Shown here: in pieces, positions 2,674 through 18,842 of the stretch
How positions within the stretch are numbered: position 1 is the stretch's first letter
Layout of the letters: each line of letters begins with the position of its first letter
Virus record (IMG/VR): IMGVR_UViG_3300018465_000014
Coordinates: 1-23,899 of that record
Source of the DNA: a virus
Direction: 5' to 3' (one strand)
Length of the DNA: 23,899 bases
The notes under the pieces: model-generated
Seen by the model: the letters and a program-made list of their open reading frames with translations, nothing else
The model's database searches: none
Told to the model about the DNA's origin: nothing
Made by a program: the position numbers and the translations under genes

Positions 2674-2809
2674 TCCGGCCGTCCTGGCGGAAATGAAGCG
2701 GCTGCGCAAGAGCGGCCTGAAGCAGACGGAAATCGCCGCGCAACTGGAGCTCAGTGTGCGTGTGGTCAACCAGTACCTCAGCGGTAAGGTCACCGTTCCC
2801 GGCAAGTGA
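2441..2809 (+). CDS. Putative DNA-binding regulator with two helix-turn-helix regions
   Basis: The 122-residue protein has AGGAGATCGATCG just before its ATG, one of the best ribosome binding sites in the left arm. Residues about 12-67 resemble the HTH_17/AlpA/excisionase fold: AKEAAEEAKVTTNAWY as the first helices, then a wing region WIDPATGIKYWRLQDVRAW. Residues about 80-114 form a second HTH of the sigma-region-4/resolvase type (LRKSGLKQTEIAAQLELS, then VRVVNQYLSG). It is the only clear transcription-factor-like protein in the window. It lies immediately before the repeated promoter array, so it could act on those promoters. That link is an inference from position. Confidence 0.7.
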   Translation: MNTTLATKPRGRLLRAKEAAEEAKVTTNAWYLAAKSTRNPRPAPWIDPATGIKYWRLQDVRAWAEAASTARQANRKVSPAVLAEMKRLRKSGLKQTEIAAQLELSVRVVNQYLSGKVTVPGK

Positions 2810-2814
2810 CCCAC

Positions 2815-2855
2815 TTGACGTCAACGACAGGATGCTGTAACGTAGTTCTTGTCAG
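2815..2855 (+). promoter_or_regulatory. Promoter P3 of the repeated array
   Basis: TTGACG (2815-2820), a 17-base spacer and TAACGT (2838-2843) are followed by the conserved box AGTTCTTGTCAG (2844-2855). It starts 5 bases after the stop of the HTH gene. The spacer differs from those of P5-P7, but the -10 and the downstream box are identical to P4 and P6. The start codon at 2881 lies 37 bases after the -10. Confidence 0.85.
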
Positions 2856-2880
2856 ACGGAGAGCGGGACGGGAGAGGGCA

Positions 2881-3411
2881 ATGGAACTGCTAAGGATGTG
2901 GGTCGGGGACCTGATCGGGACGATCGCGCTGGTCCGCAAGGACAACAGTGAGCTGTGGGCGATCGAGGCGCACGGCCCTGAGATGGTGTGGGAGGTGTGG
3001 GGATTCGATCTGGACGAGATCGAATCCCGCGCCAACGGGCGCGCGATCAGTCGCGGGTACCGGGAACTGTCCCCGGCCGAGCGGGAACCGCGCGCGGCCC
3101 GGATGATGGCCAGCCCACTGGCCGCTGAGCAGCGGATCAGGACGGCCAACCCACTGGCCAGCGGATCGATCGAACTCACCGAACCTCAGGCCGATCACAT
3201 CCGGGCCGCGCGCGGACGCAACTCCCGGGTCATCGACCGGGGCACCGGCGAGGGTCGGGCCAGCCTTGCCACGCTCCAGGGGTTGCAGCGACGCGGGATG
3301 GGTGAGCTGTTCGGCCCGAGGTACCGGCCGACCGGCATCATTCTGAACGATCGCGCGTTCTCGGCGCTCACCGCGCATGACCGGGCGCTGAACGCGGCCG
3401 GTGCCCGATGA
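2881..3411 (+). CDS. Array gene 1: unknown protein, possible winged-helix C-terminal half
   Basis: The 176-residue product starts at an ATG 7-8 bases after GGGAGAGGG and 37 bases after the -10 of P3, matching the leader lengths of the other array genes. The N-terminal part is Trp-rich and acidic (LWAIEAHGPEMVWEVWGFDLDEIE). The C-terminal part has the pattern LTEPQADHIRAARG, SLATLQGLQRRGMGEL, then GIILNDRAFSAL. That is a helix, helix and strand order similar to a winged helix, but I cannot assign a family. The stop overlaps the next start (ATGA), so the two genes form a two-gene operon. Longer in-frame starts would read through the promoter. Confidence 0.6.
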   Translation: MELLRMWVGDLIGTIALVRKDNSELWAIEAHGPEMVWEVWGFDLDEIESRANGRAISRGYRELSPAEREPRAARMMASPLAAEQRIRTANPLASGSIELTEPQADHIRAARGRNSRVIDRGTGEGRASLATLQGLQRRGMGELFGPRYRPTGIILNDRAFSALTAHDRALNAAGAR

Positions 3412-3806
3412 GCAGCACCGACGGCGTGCGCGTCCCGGTGCCGGGTGAGACATGGTACGCGGTGAGCTTCAGCGGTGTTGAGCGCCGGTGCGTGCCCGTA
3501 GTGGTCGAACGCCTGACGGCCACTCAGGTGGTCACCACGCGGGGGGACCGCTTCAGGCGGAAGGATCTGACGCAGGTCGGGCCGGTCAGCCAGTACAGCA
3601 CGACTGTGCGGCTTCACCCTGCGGACGATCCGGACGTGGTCAAGATGCTCGCCAGCGAGCAGGTTAGACGGGTGCTGCTCGCGTGCGACCCCCGCCTGAA
3701 TCCGCTTCCCCGTCTCGCCAAGAATCAATCCGCCCACCTGCGCACGCTGGCGCGTGGGCTGATCAATGCCGCCGACGCGCTTGACAAAGTCTACGGTCCC
3801 CTGTAA
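3408..3806 (+). CDS. Array gene 2: unknown protein with beta-rich N-terminus
   Basis: The 132-residue product is coupled to the preceding gene by an ATGA overlap. Residues 5-60 look like a small beta barrel (VPGETWYAVSF, CVPVVVERLTATQVVTTRGD). The second half is helical (LRTLARGLINAADALDKVY). A similar beta pattern occurs in the array gene at 5031. I see no known motif. Its last 26 bases contain the whole core of promoter P4, and its TAA stop is the first half of the P4 -10 box. Confidence 0.55.
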   Translation: MSSTDGVRVPVPGETWYAVSFSGVERRCVPVVVERLTATQVVTTRGDRFRRKDLTQVGPVSQYSTTVRLHPADDPDVVKMLASEQVRRVLLACDPRLNPLPRLAKNQSAHLRTLARGLINAADALDKVYGPL

Positions 3807-3821
3807 CGTAGTTCTTGTCAG
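3781..3821 (+). promoter_or_regulatory. Promoter P4 of the repeated array (inside a gene end)
   Basis: TTGACA (3781-3786), a 17-base spacer and TAACGT (3804-3809) are followed by AGTTCTTGTCAG (3810-3821). The -35 and spacer are the last codons of the upstream gene, and TAA of TAACGT is its stop. The downstream start GTG at 3850 is 40 bases after the -10. Confidence 0.85.
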
Positions 3822-3849
3822 CGAGGGACACGGACAAGGGAGCGGGACA

Positions 3850-4200
3850 GTGCAGCAGATCAAGAGCCGGATTCAGGTACCGACCGCCGACCGGATCGGC
3901 CGGTGCCCGAAGTGCCGGGGGCGCGCCAGCGCGGTGCGGTTCGGGATCTTCGAGGGGTGCTGTGTCGAGCGGCTCAAGGGCCGGATCGTGACCGTTCGGG
4001 TGGGCCGGCAGAGCCGGATGGTGGAGATCGGTGACCAGGGCGACCCGCAGGTCTTCCCGTTCACGAACGCCTGTATCAGCACGCTGACCCGGGACCCCCA
4101 GGGCGAGGCTGCGCAGAGCATCCGGGACCACCGGGAGGCGTACCGGGTGGGTCACACCACCGACTGCGAGAGCGCGCTGTACCGCGGACTGTGCCACTGA
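3850..4200 (+). CDS. Array gene 3: cysteine-rich small protein
   Basis: The 116-residue product starts at GTG 3850, after AAGGGAG, with the same leader length as the other array genes. An early C-P-K-C pair (residues about 17-20, GRCPKCRGRA) and a later E-G-C-C suggest a zinc-knuckle or treble-clef-like metal site. Further cysteines (NAC, TDC, GLC) occur in the C-terminal half. The middle is beta-rich (IVTVRVGRQSRMVEIGD). A nucleic-acid or host-protein binding role is possible, but no family is recognised. The gene is followed by a strong terminator at 4218. The upstream ATG at 3766 lies inside the previous gene and before the promoter. Confidence 0.6.
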   Translation: MQQIKSRIQVPTADRIGRCPKCRGRASAVRFGIFEGCCVERLKGRIVTVRVGRQSRMVEIGDQGDPQVFPFTNACISTLTRDPQGEAAQSIRDHREAYRVGHTTDCESALYRGLCH

Positions 4201-4217
4201 CCAGCACGAACAGATAC

Positions 4218-4239
4218 GGCCCCCTACGGGGGGCCTTTT
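4218..4239 (+). terminator. Intrinsic terminator after array gene 3
   Basis: GGCCCCC (4218-4224) pairs with GGGGGCC (4229-4235) across a 4-base loop, and TTTT follows (4236-4239). It is the only array terminator with a T-run. It ends 14 bases before the -35 of P5. Confidence 0.85.
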
Positions 4240-4253
4240 CTGTGTCTAGGGGG

Positions 4254-4294
4254 TTGACACACCCCACAGAACCCTGTAGCGTAGTTCTTGTCAG
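4254..4294 (+). promoter_or_regulatory. Promoter P5 of the repeated array
   Basis: TTGACA (4254-4259), a 17-base spacer and TAGCGT (4277-4282) are followed by AGTTCTTGTCAG (4283-4294). Similarity to P6 continues past the box through CAGGGAACGGGA, so the repeat here spans about 53 bases including part of the leader. Confidence 0.87.
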
Positions 4295-4320
4295 CAGGGA
4301 ACGGGACAAGGGAGACGGAA

Positions 4321-4479
4321 ATGGACCTCACCAAGATGACCATCAGGCAGATCAAGGCCTACGCCGCCGAGATCGGTGTCGAGATCCCGTCGATCTACCG
4401 GACCAAAGCCCAGATCATCCGGGTACTGGAGACGCGTCGGGACATGGACGAACACCGCGCGGCGGTGCGCGGGTTCTGA
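4321..4479 (+). CDS. Array gene 4: 52-residue SAP/Rho-N-like helix-extended-helix protein
   Basis: The start ATG is 38 bases after the -10 of P5, with AAGGGAGACGGAA upstream. Almost the whole protein is one small domain. TIRQIKAYAAEIGVEI, SIYRTKAQIIRVLE gives the helix, extended linker and helix pattern of SAP/LEM/Rho N-terminal-like domains, which usually bind nucleic acids or protein partners. The same pattern occurs at the C-terminus of the next array gene. A stand-alone 52-residue version could be a DNA-bridging or competitor protein; that is inference. It is followed by a hairpin at 4492. Confidence 0.65.
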   Translation: MDLTKMTIRQIKAYAAEIGVEIPSIYRTKAQIIRVLETRRDMDEHRAAVRGF

Positions 4480-4491
4480 CCGGGCCGGCAC

Positions 4492-4514
4492 GGGGGAGGG
4501 ATTTTCCCTCCCCC
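4492..4514 (+). terminator. Terminator-like hairpin after array gene 4
   Basis: GGGGGAGGG (4492-4500) pairs perfectly with CCCTCCCCC (4506-4514) across the loop ATTTT. There is no T-run after the stem, so termination is likely but not certain. It ends 6 bases before the -35 of P6. Confidence 0.65.
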
Positions 4515-4520
4515 ACCGAC

Positions 4521-4561
4521 TTGACACACCCCACAGAGTCCTGTAACGTAGTTCTTGTCAG
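4521..4561 (+). promoter_or_regulatory. Promoter P6 of the repeated array
   Basis: TTGACA (4521-4526), a 17-base spacer and TAACGT (4544-4549) are followed by AGTTCTTGTCAG (4550-4561). The spacer differs from P5 at only two positions (GAGTCC against GAACCC). The start codon at 4589 is 39 bases after the -10. Confidence 0.87.
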
Positions 4562-4588
4562 CAGGGAACGGGAACTGAGGGAGTCAAG

Positions 4589-4924
4589 ATGAGCGCCAAG
4601 GGATCGAACGGGACGACCGGAACCATCCACTACGCCCGGCACGACGGACGCGGACTGGTCCAGGTCTGCGGAGTGCGCGCCAGCCAGCGGCTTTACCTCG
4701 ACCCCGAGGCTGAGACGGTAGAAGTCACCTGCCGGAAATGCGTTGCCCCGAAGGCCGCGAGCAAGCCGCGCGCGACCGCCACCCCGCAGACGTACGGCCG
4801 GTTCAACCTCACGATCACCGACCTCCGTGAGGTTGCCAAGGATCTCAAGATCCCGGGGCGGACCCGCAAGAGCGGCGACGAACTGCTGGCGGAGATCATC
4901 GCCCTCCGGCCGCACATGGGCTGA
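4589..4924 (+). CDS. Array gene 5: cysteine pair plus C-terminal SAP/Rho-N-like domain
   Basis: The 111-residue product starts after GAGGGAG. Residues 10-55 form a compact beta-rich segment with cysteines at VQVCGV and VTCRKC, possibly one metal site. An Ala/Lys/Pro linker follows (APKAASKPRATATPQ). The last 40 residues (NLTITDLREVAKDLKIPGR, then KSGDELLAEII) repeat the helix-extended-helix pattern of array gene 4. The two neighbouring genes therefore share a domain, and one has an added N-terminal module. A role in nucleic-acid binding is suggested by the fold but unproven. Confidence 0.65.
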   Translation: MSAKGSNGTTGTIHYARHDGRGLVQVCGVRASQRLYLDPEAETVEVTCRKCVAPKAASKPRATATPQTYGRFNLTITDLREVAKDLKIPGRTRKSGDELLAEIIALRPHMG

Positions 4925-4935
4925 GCGAGACGGAT

Positions 4936-4958
4936 GGGGCGCCCGGGCCGGGCGCCCC
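4936..4958 (+). terminator. Terminator-like hairpin after array gene 5
   Basis: GGGGCGCCC (4936-4944) pairs with GGGCGCCCC (4950-4958) across a 5-base loop. It lies 11 bases after the stop codon. There is no T-run, only CTACT. It ends 7 bases before the -35 of P7. Confidence 0.65.
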
Positions 4959-4965
4959 CTACTGC

Positions 4966-5006
4966 TTGACACACCTCACAGAATCCTGTAACGTATTTCT
5001 TGCCAG
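4966..5006 (+). promoter_or_regulatory. Promoter P7 of the repeated array (diverged box)
   Basis: TTGACA (4966-4971), a 17-base spacer and TAACGT (4989-4994) are present. The downstream box reads ATTTCTTGCCAG (4995-5006), with two differences from the consensus. The spacer is nearly identical to P5 and P6. The start codon at 5031 is 36 bases after the -10. Confidence 0.85.
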
Positions 5007-5030
5007 AGAGCGGATGGGAAGGGGTCAGAG

Positions 5031-5429
5031 ATGAGCACCAGCAGGCAGGCCGGAACGGACGGGATGGACCCCCGCACCCAGGTCGGTGACATCGTCGAAT
5101 ACGTGCGCAACGGTCGACGGTACCGGTTCCGGGTGGACGTGATCGGTCAGCGGCACGTGATGGGTGCCGCGGTCGCGGTTGACACGAACAAGCCGATCCG
5201 GCACGGGTCCGTCGGAGTGAACCGTTCGGCGCCACGCGAAGACCTACGCACCATCGCGGCCGGCCGGATGACCCACGCCGCCGCACTCCGGGAGCATGAG
5301 CAGCGCACGGCCAGCCCGCTCCGGTGTAGCGCCGGGCTGGTCGCGTGGCCGTATGACGGCCACTGCATCCTCGCGCCCGGACATCGGGGCCCGTGCGACC
5401 GACCGCAGGTGCACCGTCTCGGGCGCTGA
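5031..5429 (+). CDS. Array gene 6: unknown protein, beta-barrel-like N-terminus and Cys/His C-terminus
   Basis: The 132-residue product starts after AAGGGG. Residues 18-75 look like an SH3-like barrel (VGDIVEYVRNGRRYRFRVDV, then a charged RSAPREDLRTI). The C-terminal 35 residues carry C-x9-GHC and PGHRGPC, a Cys/His pattern often seen at the ends of small actinophage proteins. It may bind metal. It is the last rightward gene, ending 5 bases before the large inverted repeat at 5435. No function is recognised. Confidence 0.6.
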   Translation: MSTSRQAGTDGMDPRTQVGDIVEYVRNGRRYRFRVDVIGQRHVMGAAVAVDTNKPIRHGSVGVNRSAPREDLRTIAAGRMTHAAALREHEQRTASPLRCSAGLVAWPYDGHCILAPGHRGPCDRPQVHRLGR

Positions 5430-5434
5430 ACACA

Positions 5435-5471
5435 CACAGAGGGGGTACCCGGACCGGGTACCCCCTCTGTG
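5435..5471. terminator. Long inverted repeat at the convergent junction, probable bidirectional terminator
   Basis: The arms 5435-5451 and 5455-5471 are perfectly complementary over 17 bp around a 3-base loop (16 bp if the innermost pair is left open). The stem contains GGGGGTACCC and its complement. It sits exactly between the end of the rightward array and the end of the leftward late operon, so it would be read as a hairpin from both sides. Neither side has a T-run. Confidence 0.75.
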
Positions 5472-5495
5472 CCGCGTGTGACCGACACGACTCGG

Positions 5496-5513
5496 CTTGC
5501 TTGCGCAAGCAAG
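5496..5513. repeat. 18-bp perfect palindrome
   Basis: CTTGCTTGC is followed directly by GCAAGCAAG, making an 18-bp perfect palindrome. It lies between the convergent terminator and the stop of the last leftward gene. It is less GC-rich than its surroundings. It could be an operator-like site, a second termination hairpin for the leftward operon, or a replication or packaging site; the sequence alone does not decide. Confidence 0.6.
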
Positions 5514-11620: not shown

Positions 11621-13461
11621 GCGACAGCCCCGCCAAGGACGCGTTGCGCGTTGCCGCCGCGCCGCCGCACCACGCGCCGGAGAACGGCCAGGATCAGCGC
11701 GTCGAGCTCACCACCGGTGGACCTGATCTCCCACGCGTCGCCACCGCTGGCCGGCACCGCGCCGGCCGACTGGGTGGCCATGCGCTGACTGTCCGGCGCT
11801 GAGGCGACCTGCGAACCGGGCGGCGCCTTGATCAGTTCCGCCCCCTGTTCACCGACCCAGGTCCAGCCGGACACCGGCCCGCCCGCGGCGCGACCGCCGA
11901 TACCGGACGAATAGGTTCCCGACTGCTGTGCCATGTTCAGTTTTGCGCCACCGATCACGCGTACCCGGACGTTGACATCCTCGTCCTGGATACCGTCCAG
12001 CGCCGCATTGACCTTGTCCCGGAACCCGGCCACGGCGCGCGCCGCTGATTCCAGCTTCGGACCCAGTCCGGGAATCCATGAGAACGCGTGCGCCGCCGCG
12101 GTAACAATGGCTGAGAAAGTATCCAGCGTTACCCGCAGCACCATACGGAACGCGCTGAACCAGGCGGACGCCAGGAATCCGACTATCGGCAGGAGCACAG
12201 TGACGATGATTGTCCCGATCGCGGACAGGGTGCCGAGAATCTTCTGACCGTCCGGGCTGTTCGCCCAGTCGGCGAACGCTTTCGTGATGTTGCGGATCGA
12301 CTGCAACATGCTTTCGCCACCATCTCCAGCTTTCCAGATGGCGCCGAGTGCGCGACCAATGTCCCCGGCCATCAGTCGTAGGGTGTCCAGGTTGCGCAGT
12401 GCGGAGTCCAGCCACTCACCAAGACGGCCGGATTCCTTCATTTTGCGAATCCAGTCGGACGCAGCCTCAGCCGCATTCTTCATGCTGCCGGTCACGCGCT
12501 CCAGTCGGGGCGCTGCAACCTCAGCAATGTCGATGAACATCTGCGTGAATGGTCGAATGAGACCCATCACATTGTCAATCGACAGCGCAACCTTGTCGAG
12601 AATGAATTCAAGCTGGTTTTTCGCCCCGGAAAGCGTCAGAAATTCGACGAATTCCGTACGCGCCCACCGCAGAGAGTCGGCGATTCGGGGAAGAATGCGA
12701 TCCAATAGCGGTTTGAATGCCGCATTCAGCGCGTAAATCTCCCCGGACGCGCCCGCAAAGAACCGATTCTGGACCGTTTTCTGTAGGCCAGCGTATTCCT
12801 TGCGCAATTTGACGATAGTGCGAACCGCATCGGCCGCATTCGGCGCCAAATTCTTCAACGCCTGGTTGTATTTCTTCTGATCGCCCTCGATTCCGGCCTT
12901 GAGTGCGTCCCCGACGCCGGACAATGCCATCTTGAAAACGCCCATGATGGCGACACCGGCCAGCGCTGCGGGTGCGATCAGCTGGACGGCACCCGCGAGG
13001 GACACCAGGGCGGCCACCAGCGGCACAGCGACCGCCAGCAGCCCACCCAGTGCCAGTATGTACCCGCTGGCCGTGGCCGCCCCGCTGGCCATCGCCGGCC
13101 CGACCTTGCCGACGATTCCGGCCAGCCCGCCCATCGCGTTGCCCAGCACGCGCCCGATGCCGGTCAGCACCAGGAACGTGCGCCCCAACAGGTGGCTGCG
13201 TAGCTGTGTCGCCTGAGCCGCCTGAGCGGTGCTGAGAAACTGCCCGTTCGCTGCGCGCCACTGACCCCCCGCGCTGCGGTAGGCGCCGGCCAGCCCGTGC
13301 GTGGCGCGCGTGGTCGCGGTGAACTGCGTGCGCAGCCGGGTGAGTGCGCCGCTGACCTGCGTAGCCATGTTCCTGGCCGCCGCGGTGGTGGCCGACCAGG
13401 CACCCGCGCCGGTGGTGCGGGTGGCCACCACGATGTTGACGACGTTCGCCACGGTGGCCAC
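11617..13461 (-). CDS. Tail tape measure protein
   Basis: The 614-residue protein is helical and Ala-rich, with hydrophobic segments at about 120-185 and 415-450. A glycine-rich tail reads GGRAAGGPVSG, then VGEQGAELI, the GGPV and VGExGxELI pattern common at tape-measure C-termini. It follows the tail-assembly chaperone genes and precedes the tail-tip gene, the standard siphovirus order. At about 0.15 nm per residue the tail would be near 90 nm, a short to medium tail (established rule, rough estimate). The start is GTG 13461; AGGGGAAGG is very close to it, so the next in-frame GTG at 13452 is a possible true start. Confidence 0.87.
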   Translation of the reverse strand: MATVANVVNIVVATRTTGAGAWSATTAAARNMATQVSGALTRLRTQFTATTRATHGLAGAYRSAGGQWRAANGQFLSTAQAAQATQLRSHLLGRTFLVLTGIGRVLGNAMGGLAGIVGKVGPAMASGAATASGYILALGGLLAVAVPLVAALVSLAGAVQLIAPAALAGVAIMGVFKMALSGVGDALKAGIEGDQKKYNQALKNLAPNAADAVRTIVKLRKEYAGLQKTVQNRFFAGASGEIYALNAAFKPLLDRILPRIADSLRWARTEFVEFLTLSGAKNQLEFILDKVALSIDNVMGLIRPFTQMFIDIAEVAAPRLERVTGSMKNAAEAASDWIRKMKESGRLGEWLDSALRNLDTLRLMAGDIGRALGAIWKAGDGGESMLQSIRNITKAFADWANSPDGQKILGTLSAIGTIIVTVLLPIVGFLASAWFSAFRMVLRVTLDTFSAIVTAAAHAFSWIPGLGPKLESAARAVAGFRDKVNAALDGIQDEDVNVRVRVIGGAKLNMAQQSGTYSSGIGGRAAGGPVSGWTWVGEQGAELIKAPPGSQVASAPDSQRMATQSAGAVPASGGDAWEIRSTGGELDALILAVLRRVVRRRGGNAQRVLGGAVA

Positions 13462-13469
13462 CCCTTCCC

Positions 13470-14089
13470 CTATCCGACCGGCTCACCCGGTGACCGGTAC
13501 AGCGCTTCCACGTTCAACATGCGGAGGATGCTCGCATCCTCGTCGAGAATCTGCGACGGCAGACAATGGAATCGGTCACAGAGCGTCAGTATGGTGCGTA
13601 TCCGGTGGAGTTCGTGGTTGACTGCGGGGTCGGCGCCATCGGGATCGTCATCGGCGGGGAGGGCATCCCCGACGGCGCCGTACCGGATGGCGGCGCGGCC
13701 AAAGGGCTGTCGGCCGGTGCCTGTGTCACGGCGCCGACCCAGGCCGTGGTGACATCCATGACCAGGGGCATCTCTTCCCGGCCCAGGTGTTCCCGGTCAG
13801 CCGGAATCGGGGTGCCATCCTCTTCCTCCAGGTTCCAACTGTGCAGCTTCGCGGCCACCTTGTCGAGCAGCCGACCAGCCACCGTCATGGCCTCGGTGGG
13901 GTCGGCGCCCGCCTCGGGATCGATGCCGCGAAGACTGTCGATCAGCCCGGTCAGCTCGAACACCTCATCCATGCTCAAGCCGTAGAACTGGACGGCCAGA
14001 CCCTCCGAGCCGGTCTCCGGATCGGGTCCGTGCGCGTGCCCTTCCGGGAACGACACCCGGTAGATGGTCCGCTTTCGCCTGTGTCCCAT
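13470..14089 (-). CDS. Tail assembly chaperone GT, made by -1 frameshift
   Basis: The frame -1 to gene G continues past the G stop and is open down to the TAG at 13472-13470. It encodes a typical T extension: RAAIRYGAVGDALPADDD, then NHELHRIRTILTLCDRFHCL and a DEDASILRMLNVEALYR ending. A slip at CCCTTTG (13706-13700) joins 130 residues of G to 76 residues of T, giving 206 residues. As in lambda G/GT, the longer form would bring the tape measure and tail-tube subunits together and is not expected in the virion. The extension has no start codon of its own, so it is easily missed. Its stop lies 8 bases before the tape measure start. Confidence 0.85.
13586..14089 (-). CDS. Tail assembly chaperone G
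   Basis: The 167-residue zero-frame product starts at ATG 14089 after GGGGGAAG. Residues 1-110 form the conserved-looking part (TIYRVSFPEG near the start, LSMDEVFELTGLIDSLRGID, HSWNLEEEDGTPIPADREHL). The segment WNLEEEDGTPI is typical of actinophage G chaperones. The last 37 residues (after the slip site) are Pro/Ser/Thr-rich and look unconstrained, as expected for the minor length of zero-frame sequence beyond a frameshift site. It lies between the tail-tube protein and the tape measure. Confidence 0.85.
   Translation of the reverse strand: MGHRRKRTIYRVSFPEGHAHGPDPETGSEGLAVQFYGLSMDEVFELTGLIDSLRGIDPEAGADPTEAMTVAGRLLDKVAAKLHSWNLEEEDGTPIPADREHLGREEMPLVMDVTTAWVGAVTQAPADSPLAAPPSGTAPSGMPSPPMTIPMAPTPQSTTNSTGYAPY
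13700..13706 (-). other. -1 ribosomal slippery heptamer CCCTTTG
   Basis: On the minus strand the zero frame reads AGC CCT TTG GCC, so C-CCT-TTG fits the X-XXY-YYZ rule. After a one-base backward slip the P and A site tRNAs would re-pair with CCC and TTT, and reading would continue with GGC CGC GCC. The downstream sequence is GC-rich and could form a stimulatory structure, but I did not find a clear pseudoknot by eye. Confidence 0.82.
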
Positions 14090-14135
14090 TGCGCTTCCCC
14101 CATGATGTATGTTACGGTTATCTGTGTCGGGCTAC

Positions 14136-14546
14136 TTACGACCAGGTCGGCACCACGCCGTCGGCCAGCACGCCCGGGGCCTGCCACGTGAATTCGCCAC
14201 TCTGTGGGCGGGTCAGCTGGTAGTCGGTGTAGAAGATCTCCGGTGCCAGCGACACCCCGCCGTGGCCAAGCGATGTCGTGCGCGCGACGCTGGTGGACGG
14301 CACGGTGCGGAACACGGCGTGTGCGGTAGTGGTCGCCGCCGGGTTGAACACCCCATTGAAGGTCACCGAACAGTCGGCCAGCAGCAGCAGCCGGGAAATG
14401 CCACTCTGATCGACGCCGGTCGCGTCCTGGACCGCGCGCGGGGTCGACACCTCGAAGTTCGTGATGTCGTTGCGGATGTCGCGCGGGGTACCGCCCGAGT
14501 CATCGATGCTGACTGTCGTGATCGCCAAACCGGTCGTCTTGGCCAT
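14136..14546 (-). CDS. Tail-tube-like protein (second copy)
   Basis: The 136-residue protein begins MAKTTGLAITTVSIDDSGG and continues DIRNDITNFEVSTPRAVQD, TGVDQSGISRLLLLADCSV and GVFNP. This matches my recollection of short tail-tube proteins from Streptomyces phages. It directly precedes the G/GT chaperone genes, the expected position for the main tail-tube protein. The larger protein at 15240 starts in a similar way (MTKSTGL), so the window has two tube-like proteins. Which one forms the tube shaft is not clear from sequence. The start ATG is 3 bases after the preceding stop. Confidence 0.7.
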   Translation of the reverse strand: MAKTTGLAITTVSIDDSGGTPRDIRNDITNFEVSTPRAVQDATGVDQSGISRLLLLADCSVTFNGVFNPAATTTAHAVFRTVPSTSVARTTSLGHGGVSLAPEIFYTDYQLTRPQSGEFTWQAPGVLADGVVPTWS

Positions 14547-14549
14547 GAT

Positions 14550-14762
14550 CTACTCGCTCTCTTCCGGGACCTGTTCCCGCTTGATCTCGATCCCGGCGAG
14601 GGTCTGTATCACCCGGATCACTGACGAGTCCGCAACGCGTTCGATGTACACCTTCGGGATGTCGCTGGCGTTGATGTCGATGACGACGCGAACCGTGTTG
14701 CTGTCCGCCAGCCCGGCCGCGCGTAGAGTCTCGAAAAAGGCGTTTGGGACAAATTTCGTCAC
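14550..14762 (-). CDS. Small protein between tail-tube genes
   Basis: The 70-residue product has a helical start (NAFFETLRAAGLADSNTVRV) and beta-like middle (VVIDINASDIPKVYIERVAD), then an acidic tail (VPEESE). It starts at GTG 14762, two bases after the preceding stop. I do not recognise it, but its place in a tightly packed run of tail genes argues that it is a real tail or assembly gene. Confidence 0.6.
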   Translation of the reverse strand: MTKFVPNAFFETLRAAGLADSNTVRVVIDINASDIPKVYIERVADSSVIRVIQTLAGIEIKREQVPEESE

Positions 14763-14764
14763 GG

Positions 14765-15226
14765 TCAGCCCCTCTGCTGTTCGGTCGCGATCGCGTCCTG
14801 GTGGGTCGCGAAGTCCTCGACCCAGTCATCGGTGCGGGTGTGCCGACGGATCACGGGACGCTGCGGGCCGGCCAGCCGCCAGTCGCCAGCGTGCACCAGC
14901 GCGATCGGCTCACGCTCCAGGGTCACCGTGTGCTGCTGGAAGCAGTCCTGCCCCGGTGGGAAGATCAGCGTCACGGTCGACTCTCCGACGGTTGGCGCCT
15001 CACTGTAGGACCGTCCACTGTGGAGACGAATCCAGTTCAACGCTTCAGCCTGAGCGGGGATGTTCGGATCGAGCACCGTCATCCATCCCTGCTCGCGCTG
15101 CGCGCACCCGACCTGCGCGCAGCGCGCCGGCTTGCGGTGGGTCGCCGCTGGGAATGCCAGCCGGTACGTCTTGTATGCCTGTGCTGGGCCGACCGGTGCC
15201 GGCCTGTTGAGTCCCCCCGCGAACAT
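14765..15226 (-). CDS. Conserved actinophage tail-region protein with cysteines
   Basis: The product is 153 residues from ATG 15226, chosen because GGGAGG is 6 bases upstream; the ATG at 15232 directly touches that ribosome binding site. The sequence FAGGLNRPAPVGPAQAYKTY, AATHRKPARCAQVGCAQREQ, then HSGRSYSE, FPPGQDCF and DWVEDFATHQD follows a pattern I recall from conserved hypothetical proteins of Streptomyces phages. The three cysteines (C-x5-C and a later C) may bind metal. Its role is unknown; a minor tail or neck component is likely from context. Confidence 0.68.
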   Translation of the reverse strand: MFAGGLNRPAPVGPAQAYKTYRLAFPAATHRKPARCAQVGCAQREQGWMTVLDPNIPAQAEALNWIRLHSGRSYSEAPTVGESTVTLIFPPGQDCFQQHTVTLEREPIALVHAGDWRLAGPQRPVIRRHTRTDDWVEDFATHQDAIATEQQRG

Positions 15227-15239
15227 CCGCATCCTCCCG

Positions 15240-15983
15240 TCAGAACGCGACCGCGGTCGCGTTCACCGTGACCCCGACCGCGAACGTCGCCGTCGTGAAC
15301 GTACCGGTACTGACCAAGCGTAGGTACCGCTCAACGTTACCGGCGATGGCCACGCGCTGGGTCACGTTGTCGGCGCTCACCGCGGTGAAAGCGGCGCCCG
15401 CCAGATCAGCCCACGCGTCGGCGCCACCGTTGTCACTGGACTGCTGAAGCTTCAGCGTGATCGAGGTGCCGGTGAAGTCGGTCGCCTGCAACCACATCTG
15501 GAGACCGTTGGTGCCGGCCGCGCCGAAATCCACCGACGAACCGTTGGTCGCTGCGGTGTCGGTGCGCATCCCCGCGGTCAGCAGGTCGCCCCATTCGACC
15601 CCGTAATCGGTACTCTCGACGGTTGTCTTGCACAGTAGTGACCCGTCGGACGGCCGGCTCATGTCGTAGGTGACCTGCTTACCGACCGCAGCCAGGACCG
15701 GCGCGCCGAGCGTCTGTGCGGTCATCACCATGACGTGCACGTCATCAGTCGGCATCGCGGACAACCGCTCGTGTGCCTCGCCAGCGGCATCCCCGGTGTA
15801 GAACGTGGTCACCTCGATCCCGCCGGTACGCGCGAGACCGGTCCTGGCCATGGCGCTCTGCGTGATGTCGTTGATGTCCCACGTGGCCGACCCGCCGCGG
15901 ATGGTGTCGAACGCGGCGGTGGTGCCGGAGATGTCGTATCCACCGACCAGGAAACGCATCCCGAGCCCGGTGCTCTTGGTCAC
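15240..15983 (-). CDS. Major tail protein-like, 247 residues
   Basis: The protein begins MTKSTGLGMRFLVGGYDISG, a start I associate with actinophage major tail proteins. The first 150 residues hold the tube-like fold (GGSATWDINDITQSAMARTG, HERLSAMPTDDVHVMV). Residues about 155-247 form an added beta domain (LKLQQSSDNGGADAWADLAG, NVERYLRLVSTGTFTTATFA) of the kind found as surface decoration on tail tubes. The start is GTG 15983, with GAGGGGGAA upstream. It follows the presumed tail terminator, the usual order. Confidence 0.75.
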   Translation of the reverse strand: MTKSTGLGMRFLVGGYDISGTTAAFDTIRGGSATWDINDITQSAMARTGLARTGGIEVTTFYTGDAAGEAHERLSAMPTDDVHVMVMTAQTLGAPVLAAVGKQVTYDMSRPSDGSLLCKTTVESTDYGVEWGDLLTAGMRTDTAATNGSSVDFGAAGTNGLQMWLQATDFTGTSITLKLQQSSDNGGADAWADLAGAAFTAVSADNVTQRVAIAGNVERYLRLVSTGTFTTATFAVGVTVNATAVAF

Positions 15984-15996
15984 GGCCGGTTCCCCC

Positions 15997-16461
15997 TCAC
16001 TCCGCCTGGTCGAACGCGTCCGCGACGATCACTGGCATTGTAACCGTGCCGAGTCTGAACATGGCTCCGTCAACGCTGGCATACCCGTACCGGCAGTTCA
16101 GGCGGGTGCCGTGCGCGCCGAGCAGGTCAACGTGGTACCCCAGTCCAGCGCGCACGCCGAACTGGCCGATCAGCGCACCCATGACCAGCGCGCCGACGCT
16201 CAACGCCTCAGCTTCAACGGTCGCGGACGCGACATCGCCGGACACCAGCGGCAGAAAGAATTCGATCTTGAATTCCACCCGCAACGCCGCGACAGCCAGC
16301 CCGGACATGCCCGGGGCGGTCGCCACGTCGACCAGGGTTACCGCGCACAGGCGCGCGGTCGGGATGACGGCCGGCTCACCGGCGATCACCCGGTCGAACC
16401 GGCCCAGCGACTTGAGCGGGCCGGTCACTCCGGTGAGCAGGTTATTCGCGTCGAACGCCAT
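15997..16461 (-). CDS. Probable tail terminator
   Basis: The 154-residue protein has a helical N-terminus (NNLLTGVTGPLKSLGRFDRV) followed by long beta strands (ARLCAVTLVDVATAP, LRVEFKIEFFLPLVSGDVAS), and ends in an acidic VIVADAFDQAE. There is no direct motif. It is placed between the HK97 gp10-like protein and the major tail protein. That is where the tail terminator (lambda gpU-like) normally lies, and its size fits. The assignment is therefore mainly positional. Confidence 0.55.
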   Translation of the reverse strand: MAFDANNLLTGVTGPLKSLGRFDRVIAGEPAVIPTARLCAVTLVDVATAPGMSGLAVAALRVEFKIEFFLPLVSGDVASATVEAEALSVGALVMGALIGQFGVRAGLGYHVDLLGAHGTRLNCRYGYASVDGAMFRLGTVTMPVIVADAFDQAE

Positions 16462-16465
16462 CAGC

Positions 16466-16855
16466 TCACCCGTTCAGTCTGCGGACCAGACGACCGATGA
16501 CCCGGTCACCGATCCGGCGGATCATGACGTCCAGTCGGCGTGCGGTCCGGGCGAACACGTGGTACCCGGCGAACCGGGTGACCGGCGCGTTACGGCTACC
16601 CGTGCCCTCCAGCCACGCGCTGTAGATCACCGGGTTGTCCAGCACCACGTCACCACCGACGCGCCGCGAGCGCAACCGGGTGACGTAGTACGGGGTCTGC
16701 TTGCGCAGCACGCGGTTGAATTCCGTACGCAGGATGCGGATGCCCTGCTCGCCAGCCTCGTCCTCGATCTCGTCCGCGGCCTGTTCGAGTAGGCGCGGCA
16801 CGCTGTGCCGCCAGAGCGGACCGCGGGTGTTCGTGTCGATGTCGATGTCGATCAT
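16466..16855 (-). CDS. HK97 gp10-like neck/tail-completion protein
   Basis: The 129-residue protein has the order typical of HK97 gp10-like proteins. A helix (LLEQAADEIEDEAGEQGIRI) leads to LRTEFNRVLRKQTPYYVTRL, a beta segment VVLDNPVIYSAWLEGTGSRN, and an Arg-rich helical end (RIGDRVIGRLVRRL). The Y-x-x-W-L-E-x-G step is the best family marker. These proteins help join head and tail. Stop and start overlap by one base with the connector gene (TGATG). Confidence 0.75.
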   Translation of the reverse strand: MIDIDIDTNTRGPLWRHSVPRLLEQAADEIEDEAGEQGIRILRTEFNRVLRKQTPYYVTRLRSRRVGGDVVLDNPVIYSAWLEGTGSRNAPVTRFAGYHVFARTARRLDVMIRRIGDRVIGRLVRRLNG

Positions 16856-17907
16856 CAGACAGCCCGCGCCCGGACCCGGTGGCGGTACAGTGCCTCGATC
16901 TGCTTACGCGCCTGAGCCAGCCCGCGGCCGGCCACCTCCCGCACGTTCTCGCCCGTGCCCAACTGGCGCGCGTACGCGGCGTGCTCCTGCATCAGGGTTC
17001 CGAGAGTGTTCGCGCGCACGAACATACGCACGGGGCCGGGCGCGCGGTAGCGGGTGGTGATCGCACCGGCATTGTGGGTGGTCGCCGTGGTGCCGACCGC
17101 GCCGCGTTCAACGGTCAGGCTGCGCGGCGCGTAGATCGGCGTGGTGATCGTGTGCGCGGCCAGCGTGGTGCCGGCGGTCGCGCGTTCGACCACCGCCGTG
17201 GTGCCGGTCATCGCGAGCACGTTCATGCGCTCGGCGTCCACCATGATCTGCTCGCCGGCCATGAACGCGGTAGCACTCCCCACCGGGATCGACACCACCG
17301 CGTCATCAGATGCCAGCGCGACGCCGGTGGTAACGCCGGTGTCGGACCAGGTCCGATCGGTCACGATCATGCGTTCGGTGCCGATCTTGATCAGGTCACC
17401 GATACCGACCTTATGCGCGTAGTCGACCGTGACCGTGGTCGCCGAACTGGTCAGTGAACCGGTGGTCAACCCGACCAGCTGTGCATCGTCGTTGAAGCCG
17501 AACCAGCCGAGCAGCGCCACGCTGCGCTGCGGGGTGGCCAGCGCGGCGAATGCCGCAGCACTGGCCCGGTCGATCTCGATCCGGTTGTACGGCGGGCCGG
17601 TGTCCGGCCGCAGGAACCGATCATCGGCGCTGATCACCACCCCGCCGGACGTGACGCTCTCCAGACTGATCAGCTCATCGTCACCCAGATGCAGGACCAA
17701 CGCCTCCTGTGTGCGCGCCGGCCAGTCCTTGTACCTGGTGCCGTACTGCGGATGGAACACCCGGGCCGCGTCGAGCTCGATCGAGCGTGAGCTGTGCTCC
17801 AGGATCTCGCCGATCACCGCGACGGTCTCAGGGGTGGCCGTCCCGCGCAGCACGCGTAGCACATCCTCAACCGTGGCGTACCACACGCCTGGTGTGCCCT
17901 TGATCAT
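16855..17907 (-). CDS. Head-tail connector with central beta-repeat insertion
   Basis: The 350-residue protein starts with a connector-like helical domain (WYATVEDVLRVLRGT, then SSRSIELDAARVFHP). It continues YKDWPARTQEALVLHLGDDE, as in gp6-like connector proteins with an added substrate-like lid. Residues about 145-290 are beta-rich and carry two copies of a unit of the type GTERMIVTDRTW and DAERMNVLAMTGTTAVVERA, GTTLAAH and GTTATTH. The C-terminus returns to helices (LMQEHAAYARQLG, GLAQARKQIEALYRHR). The connector is long because of the insertion. The start overlaps the previous stop (ATGA). Confidence 0.65.
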   Translation of the reverse strand: MIKGTPGVWYATVEDVLRVLRGTATPETVAVIGEILEHSSRSIELDAARVFHPQYGTRYKDWPARTQEALVLHLGDDELISLESVTSGGVVISADDRFLRPDTGPPYNRIEIDRASAAAFAALATPQRSVALLGWFGFNDDAQLVGLTTGSLTSSATTVTVDYAHKVGIGDLIKIGTERMIVTDRTWSDTGVTTGVALASDDAVVSIPVGSATAFMAGEQIMVDAERMNVLAMTGTTAVVERATAGTTLAAHTITTPIYAPRSLTVERGAVGTTATTHNAGAITTRYRAPGPVRMFVRANTLGTLMQEHAAYARQLGTGENVREVAGRGLAQARKQIEALYRHRVRARAV

Positions 17908-18842
17908 TCCCAGCCCCCGCCCATCGGATCAGTGCGCGGGTCCCACGGTACCCGTGCCTGGTCTTCCTCGTCCCACGCACGTGCCTGCTCCAGCACCGCG
18001 AGCAGGCCGTACCAGGAACCAGGGGTTTCCGCCTCAGCGACCGGTGCGGAGGACAACCCGGCTGCGGTCGCGGTCGCGCGAGGGGATGTCGCGCTGCCGA
18101 CACCACTGACCGGAACCGCACCGGTGGCGACCACCGTCGCGGTCGGACTGGTAGCGCTCCCAGTGCCGGTCACGCGCACGGTCGCGCTGGCGGTCGCGGT
18201 CGCGCGGGGGGATGTCACACCGGCGGTCGCGCGTACCGTCGCCGTGCCGCTGGCGGTCGCCGTGGCACGCGGGGAGGTGGGCGATCCCTCGCCGGTCACC
18301 GCCTCGGATTCGGCCGGCTCATCGTCGAGATCGGTGAAGTAGTCCGGTGTCCCGAACACACTCGACGGATAGGCGACCGCCGCACCCTCATTGAACGTAC
18401 CGTTGCGGACGACACCCAGGCCGATCGGGTCGGTGCCCGACTGGACGATGGTGATCCCGTTCGCAGTGATGCCGGCCGACCCGAGAGCGCCAGCTGTCCG
18501 GACGAACCGGCCGTTGCTCGCGTGCACCACCGCCGCGTAGACCTTGGTGGTGACCACGGCCTGTGCACCGCTCAGCTCAACGCGATTCCAGCCGGCTGCG
18601 GTGTCCGCGTGCGCGACCGATCCGGACGCGAGCAGGGTACCGGCGCCCGGGCCAGGGTCATCGACCGTCGTCACTTCATAGAGCGCCACGGTGTAGGTAC
18701 CGCTGGACGTGGTGGGACGGTAGAACCACACGGCGTACACGGTGCGGTTGCTCGCAAAGATGATCTTGTTGCCGGTGGTGATGGCCGCGCCGTTGTCAAG
18801 ATCGGCATCATCCGGTGATGTCTCGCCGTGCGCCCGGGCCAT
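17904..18842 (-). CDS. DUF4082-like protein with 21-residue repeats, accessory head/neck protein
   Basis: The 312-residue protein has three parts. Residues about 18-165 form a beta sandwich (GNKIIFASNRTVYAVWFYRP, YTVALYEVTT, WNRVELSGAQAVVTTKVYAA) resembling DUF4082, a putative surface/adhesion domain. Residues 189-262 are Ala/Thr/Val-rich repeats with TSPRATATA starting exactly every 21 residues. The end (GSWYGLLAVLEQARAWDEED) recalls the start of a separate short protein found in this position in Streptomyces phages, so this gene may be a fusion. It lies between capsid genes and the connector. A particle-surface role is suggested, unproven. Confidence 0.6.
   Translation of the reverse strand: MARAHGETSPDDADLDNGAAITTGNKIIFASNRTVYAVWFYRPTTSSGTYTVALYEVTTVDDPGPGAGTLLASGSVAHADTAAGWNRVELSGAQAVVTTKVYAAVVHASNGRFVRTAGALGSAGITANGITIVQSGTDPIGLGVVRNGTFNEGAAVAYPSSVFGTPDYFTDLDDEPAESEAVTGEGSPTSPRATATASGTATVRATAGVTSPRATATASATVRVTGTGSATSPTATVVATGAVPVSGVGSATSPRATATAAGLSSAPVAEAETPGSWYGLLAVLEQARAWDEEDQARVPWDPRTDPMGGGWE
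18057..18278 (-). repeat. 3.5 tandem 63-bp repeats inside the DUF4082-like gene
   Basis: In the protein the motif TSP-[RT]-ATATA recurs at residues 189, 210, 231 and 252, an exact 21-residue (63-bp) period. The copies are diverged: the third reads TSPTATVVATG. The two flanking parts of each unit alternate Ala/Thr/Val with Gly, which suggests an extended or beta-spacer stalk. Confidence 0.8.

Follow-up and report, generated by a model that had tools for sequence, protein, structure and literature searches.

The window analysed here is a stretch of 23,899 nt (23.9 kb) of the virus record IMGVR_UViG_3300018465_000014, the rest of the genome lying outside it. It contains an array of five closely similar promoters, P3 to P7, each followed immediately by a 12-base box, AGTTCTTGTCAG, and a short distance later by a small gene. 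The array is on the plus strand; the structural genes, on the minus strand, are co-directional. The phage can be assigned to the actinophages by kinship, its capsid protein having approximately 50% identity to capsids of IMG/VR phages and 44% to that of Streptomyces phage Dagobah. A DNA search among phage records found no near relative of the whole window, and a search for relatives via the P3 gene or the neighbouring helix-turn-helix gene found none.

The five promoters combine a TTGAC[A/G] -35 element, a spacer of exactly 17 bp and a TA[A/G]CGT -10 element (TAACGT in P3, P4, P6 and P7, TAGCGT in P5), with the box directly after it. The box is exact in P3 to P6, and the P7 copy, ATTTCTTGCCAG, has two changes. 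With at least five of six -35 bases, the 17-bp spacer, this -10 element and a gene downstream, all five have the build of sigma-A-type promoters. A core, TGTNAG, begins 6 bases after the -10 element, as TGTCAG in P3 to P6 and as TGCCAG, off by one base, in P7. The bases between the -10 element and the start codon number 37, 40, 38, 39 and 36 for P3 to P7, and P5 and P6 are 94% identical across 53 nt. The initial annotation had described this arrangement, with start codons 36-40 bases past the -10 element and near-identity of P5 and P6 over about 53 bases, and each of these elements was found where it had placed them. The composite pattern of promoter and box, at up to three mismatches, occurs five times in the window and not once in 100 dinucleotide shuffles. 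The 12-mer alone, at three mismatches and without regard to register, is found 13 times against 8.1 expected, which is not significant; the signal therefore resides in the exact copies and their register.

Table 1. Features of the promoter array and its gene units (promoter coordinates run from the first base of the -35 element to the last base of the box)
Feature	Position	Strand	Description
P3	2815..2855	+	TTGACG-17 bp-TAACGT-AGTTCTTGTCAG; box at 2844; predicted RNA start 2851, position taken from the leaderless-ATG ruler
P3 unit gene 1	2881..3411	+	176 aa, without Pfam or PHROG match
P3 unit gene 2	3408..3806	+	132 aa; overlaps gene 1
P4	3781..3821	+	TTGACA-17 bp-TAACGT-AGTTCTTGTCAG; box at 3810; predicted RNA start 3817
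P4 unit small gene	3850..4200	+	GTG start, 116 aa, CPKC motif, homologue not found
P4 unit intrinsic terminator	4218..4235	+	7-bp GC stem, then T-tail TTTTCTGT; z -4.4
P5	4254..4294	+	TTGACA-17 bp-TAGCGT-AGTTCTTGTCAG; box at 4283; predicted RNA start 4290
P5 unit small gene	4321..4479	+	52 aa; weak Rho_N match, E 1.4e-4, below curated cut-off
P5 unit GC hairpin	4492..4514	+	10-bp stem, without U-tract, z -4.5; shortly upstream of P6 -35 (4521)
P6	4521..4561	+	TTGACA-17 bp-TAACGT-AGTTCTTGTCAG; box at 4550; predicted RNA start 4557
P6 unit small gene	4589..4924	+	111 aa; weak Rho_N match, C-terminal
P6 unit GC hairpin	4936..4958	+	10-bp stem, without U-tract, z -3.5; shortly upstream of P7 -35 (4966)
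P7	4966..5006	+	TTGACA-17 bp-TAACGT-ATTTCTTGCCAG; box at 4995; predicted RNA start 5002
P7 unit small gene	5031..5429	+	132 aa, homologue not found
Inverted repeat between the P7 unit and converging minus-strand genes	5435..5471	.	perfect 18-bp repeat, z -6.6

Each of the units P4 to P7 is preceded by a promoter and followed by a hairpin, as in phage morons, which have their own promoter and terminator around the gene. The GC hairpins that had been predicted just before the next promoter in the three units starting at 3850, 4321 and 4589 are all present, and a fourth, after the P7 unit, is absent from that earlier list. The repeated promoter-gene-terminator design proposed with them is supported for P4 to P7; the P3 unit consists of two genes and has no hairpin. 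There, the stop codon TAA (3804-3806) of the second gene forms the first half of the P4 -10 element, and the P4 -35 element lies inside the gene. The two hairpins that lack a U-tract may act as terminators as well, and the inverted repeat after P7 is a probable two-way terminator that closes the array. Hairpins just 5' of the next -35 element would insulate three of the units, and the two-way terminator would shield the array from the converging late-strand genes.

The box is not confined to the window. A blastn search with the promoter consensus matched 290 mycobacteriophages, mostly across the -10 element and box, as well as Gordonia, Clavibacter and Curtobacterium phages. Representative sites read TTGACA (absent from some), 17 bp, TANNNT and AGTTCTTGTCAG, then a leader and a gene. 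The carriers include cluster B mycobacteriophages and Gordonia, Streptomyces and Corynebacterium phages, and the genes downstream are unrelated; the same box before different small genes in relatives, which the initial annotation had named as its own test, is thus seen in phages of several actinobacterial genera. Scans of whole records at up to three mismatches give 11 copies each in the cluster B mycobacteriophages Orwigg and Prann, 6 in Gordonia phage Pupper, 5 in KayaCho, and 5 and 4 in the IMG/VR phages G046 and G047, and the reversed pattern gives none in the same scans. In the 24 kb read of Streptomyces phage KimJongPhill, 8 of 16 promoter candidates carry the box. A scan of the viral collection with TTGACA-N17-TANNNT-NNNTCTTGTCAG returned 66 stretches, compared with 16 for a reversed 9-mer of the same composition. 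Pooled with the loci of the strict scan, there are 73 distinct sites against 7 for the reversed control; 67 of the 73 are in loci with a GC content of at least 0.45, compared with 0 of 7 (all control loci being below 0.45), and 62 of the 73 precede a ribosome site plus an open frame of 30 codons or more.

To limit circularity, promoters of the carrier phages were also gathered by -35 element, spacer, -10 element and open reading frame (ORF) only, ignoring the box. TGTVAG occurs at offset 6 past the -10 element in 51 of 117 such promoters, with 5 matches over the other 74 offsets combined. In a larger set gathered with no ORF filter, it is at offset 6 in 52 of 148 candidates, compared with 1 of 1533 TANNNT sites that lack a -35 element, and an ORF starts 31-57 nt downstream in 52/52 of the boxed candidates. 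Among boxed promoters of the same phage, identity is 65% in the spacer and 93% in the core; when sites are shuffled across phages the values are 41% and 88%, the core being raised in both comparisons by the choice of boxed sites with at most one core mismatch. That the core is kept across phages while the spacer diverges argues for selection on the box and drift of the spacer. The first half of the box takes a few recurring forms (AGTTC, TCTTC, TTCTC and ATCTC) common to several phages. A phage-specific signature in the discriminator, its first 6 bases, was considered but is not supported, identity being 56% within phages and 54% after shuffling.

The box-less promoters of the carrier phages provide a ruler for the start of transcription, one based on sequence and not on measured 5' ends. 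In them, ATG codons that open a frame of 30 codons or more are commonest at offset 7 (n=13) and offset 6 (n=6) past the -10 element, and many of these promoters appear to yield leaderless messages. Within the box, offset 7 corresponds to the G of TTG in TTG-TCAG, and because the leaderless ATGs peak there, this base is most likely the RNA start. The box AGTTCTTGTCAG would then span approximately -7 to +5, and the transcript most likely begins GUCAG.

The arrangement is probably one of host-sigma-A-type promoters with a start-site (initiation) element, set out as insulated small-gene cassettes. P3 to P7 would be copies of one strong promoter for the main sigma factor of the host (TTGACA-17-TANNNT) to which this element has been added, and each may drive one small gene, or two in the case of P3, as an independent and perhaps early-expressed unit. 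RNA polymerase would melt the pyrimidine-rich half of the box as the discriminator, and transcription would begin with GTCAG. The element could work through the host transcription machinery by affecting start-site choice, open-complex stability or promoter escape, and it is proposed that unrelated actinophages carry the box because it acts through that machinery. The distribution of the box likewise suggests a start-of-transcription signal common to actinophages, rather than a switch private to the window phage. Another possibility, if a rather doubtful one, is that TTCTTGTCAG (-5 to +5) serves actinobacterial RNA polymerase as an initiator-like core promoter element, acquired by phages across the phylum or passed down to them from a very remote ancestor, and hardly used by their hosts. 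Such an element would boost or time initiation phage-specifically while tolerating different spacers, leaders and genes.

The conserved part of the box might instead act as RNA, with the initial GUCAG of the transcript as a 5' tag that influences mRNA stability or translation; in many phages a hairpin at the 5' end would close it. Leader hairpins whose far arm pairs with the 5' GUC or GUCAG occur in KayaCho and BiggityBass (-17.5 and -18.8 kcal/mol), the hairpin of Pupper is similar, and conservation within the box is highest in the core downstream of the start. In cluster B and Gordonia phages, either GUCAG or the bases that follow it take part in a 5' hairpin. The window leaders, counted from the predicted start, are 29-33 nt long, purine-rich and equipped with a ribosome site, but they are unstructured (z between -0.3 and +1.7), which makes the tag a weaker general explanation. 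Conservation moreover extends upstream of the start into the untranscribed TTCTT, and the leaders otherwise differ among phages, so a tag of this kind appears unlikely. The leader hairpin was likewise rejected as a defining feature for the window, its leaders being unstructured.

A second alternative is that the box is an operator at which a phage repressor silences the five units jointly in the lysogen. The box overlies the expected start site, and the gene just 5' of P3 (2441-2809), whose small product has weak helix-turn-helix matches, could supply the repressor. The core TTGTCA(A)G resembles the Rhodococcus cluster CA stoperator consensus, TGTCTATTGTCAAG (PMC13313380), and the sites share with cluster A and CA stoperators their shortness, asymmetry, repetition and TTGTCA-like core. 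Stoperators of those clusters, however, are scattered over the genome, between genes or at gene ends (PMC13313380, PMC9283540), whereas the window sites are only at the +1 of promoters: all copies in the 23.9 kb, exact and near, are in promoter register, and no sites outside promoters, the stoperator trait, were found. The cluster A-type consensus, 13-14 bp, asymmetric and ending in TGTCAAG, does not fit either, since the window core TGTCAG is one base short. A TTGACA/TGTCAG dyad was examined and rejected; the core variants TGTGAG and TGTAAG, which occur with an unchanged TTGACA, break the TGACA/TGTCA symmetry. Operator specificity normally varies between immunity groups, but the same box appears in the same register in unrelated phages, and its constancy across unrelated gene content and varying spacers, at promoter register only, weakens the operator reading. 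The loci fetched from carrier phages yielded no homologue of the helix-turn-helix protein. The initial annotation had left the choice between initiation element and operator open; the position over the start, the conservation across unrelated phages, the fact that no dyad is maintained and the absence of out-of-register sites favour the former and leave an operator improbable.

Several results weigh against a start-site element read by the host machinery. The box is absent from 86 of 145 similar promoters of the same phages and is therefore dispensable for promoter function. It is mostly absent from the records of capsid relatives, including Streptomyces phage Dagobah; there are two weak matches among these records, one of which is a real-looking single copy in G034. 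The carriers were mostly picked for having at least one box, with the consequence that the one or few sites per phage are non-independent and per-carrier counts are enriched. The strict pattern matches bacterial genomes 7 times, in Firmicutes every time; several of these matches fall at one tRNA-Leu promoter found in Shouchella and a relative. There are none in actinobacterial genomes, which is odd if host RNA polymerase simply prefers the box, and this unexplained result leaves room for a phage-encoded factor (an activator, a sigma-binding protein or a phage sigma factor) common to the carriers that reads the extended promoter. In favour of this, a sigma-factor-like protein is encoded by Microbacterium cluster EC phages, whose repeated 18-bp motif is similarly built (PMC7302621). 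Such a factor is improbable too, given that no gene common to the carriers was found with the window fragment (the only match, a weak one, being that of the 968-1969 product to carrier G050) and that no special factor is required for a near-consensus -35 element at a 17-bp spacing.

At four loci of Shouchella strains and a Bacillus sp., a tRNA-Leu-like gene is preceded by TATATT-AGTTCTTGTCAG with the register unchanged, and the exact 12-mer in this promoter is perhaps a case of convergence. Among plasmids, there is one weak Streptomyces match limited to the leader part, and other matches are archaeal.

Promoter arrays of this kind are already known, and several invite comparison with the sigma-A-type promoters and start-site box of the window. 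Microbacterium cluster EC phages have 12 copies per genome of an 18-bp asymmetric motif, TAGaCT(A/C)TaGGTgTaAgC, in small intergenic gaps, in one orientation and 21-30 bp before start codons, the function of which was left open by its authors (PMC7302621). It can be read as TAGACT followed by ATAGGTGTAAG, ending in TGTAAG as in the Pupper variants, and in the EC phage Quhwah a TAGAC[A/C] -35 element (at up to two mismatches) is present 17-18 bp upstream in 6 of the 8 sites listed. It differs in its upstream half, ATAGG, in a core one base closer to the -10 element, and in a -35 element of TAGACA rather than TTGACA. On the strength of this layout and the Quhwah -35 sites, the EC motif is taken as a sister form of the window promoter design. 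For Gordonia cluster DR (CaiB), repeated intergenic regions have been described in a paper that covers the leader repeats and not the promoter (PMC9302106). The DR phage BiggityBass has TANNNT, AGTTCTTGT[C/G]AG and GCGGGA...CCCGC before small genes, the same family, but with a TTGCGC -35 element and a leader hairpin; the window leaders lack the GCGGGA...CCCGC hairpin.

The SAS/ESAS repeats of cluster K (PMC3203893), which have been given a promoter reading (PMC11373665), are likewise repeated sigma-A-like promoters before small genes at a short fixed distance from the start codon. ESAS, however, contains an imperfect inverted repeat of 17 bp, and SAS is located at the ribosome site. Neither trait is present in the window, and no ESAS-like inverted repeat over the promoters was found in window positions 2700-5500. 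In cluster O phages, promoters and palindromes have been reported. In Gordonia phage Vardy of cluster DJ (PMC9671010), small genes are preceded by an array of near-identical motifs that include a -10 element, but the start region is GAGACCCC and the leader is short. The start-site element is therefore not universal.

Actinophage papers treat repeated intergenic motifs per cluster and leave their function open (PMC7302621, PMC9302106, PMC9671010, PMC3203893). With the box, one such motif is linked to the same promoter position, the expected RNA start, in phages of different clusters and host genera. No description of a start-site element common to actinophage clusters was found in the literature searched, and a text search for TTCTTGTCAG or TTGTCAG with phage gave nothing relevant, most subscription papers being outside its coverage. 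The pattern offers a one-line rule for locating the transcription units of small phage genes, and it raises a simple promoter test, namely the effect of a +1 element on initiation by host RNA polymerase. Should the element alter initiation, it would be an actinobacterial core-promoter element that host sequence analysis would miss, and it could supply compact promoter-leader parts for laboratory actinobacteria.

Other start regions occur as well. In G046, an IMG/VR phage of 58 kb, 29 TTGACA-N17-TANNNT promoters precede ORFs, and some have other start regions, such as TTACATATCAGC. Actinoplanes phage phiAsp2 has 18 promoter candidates, many with a near-identical TTGACActtcacagtcaagcctgTAATGT spacer and varied start regions, and several appear to be leaderless; the same spacer is common to the IMG/VR contigs G049, G051 and G052. 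A second recurring start region, CATAGGTG[C/T]NAG or AATGGGTGTGAG, is found in Pupper, G046 and KayaCho and resembles the Microbacterium EC motif.

Homologues of the cassette genes were not found among the fetched loci, nor were homologues of the P4 and P7 products among all phage records. In the adjacent P5 and P6 products, the weak Rho_N-like stretch is N-terminal in one and C-terminal in the other, and the two genes are possibly duplicates. In Orwigg (13008-18030), boxed promoters drive short opposite-strand units within the structural region, one with gp18 and another with gp20-gp19, including a DpdA-like protein, an arrangement that fits movable cassettes. The initial annotation had suggested that recombination between the repeats might add or remove cassettes.

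Elsewhere in the window, Rfam matched only the tRNA. A tRNA-like sequence at 661-741 (CCCCGTAGTTCAACAGGC...GGGTTCAAATCCCGTCCGGGGA) is called by neither ARAGORN nor Rfam, and a called tRNA-Met follows at 809. Two further promoters are box-less: TTGACA-17-TAGGCT at 282-309 and TTGACC-17-TAGACT at 2279-2307. The second has an ATG 6 nt past its -10 element, and the gene at 2314 is therefore probably leaderless.

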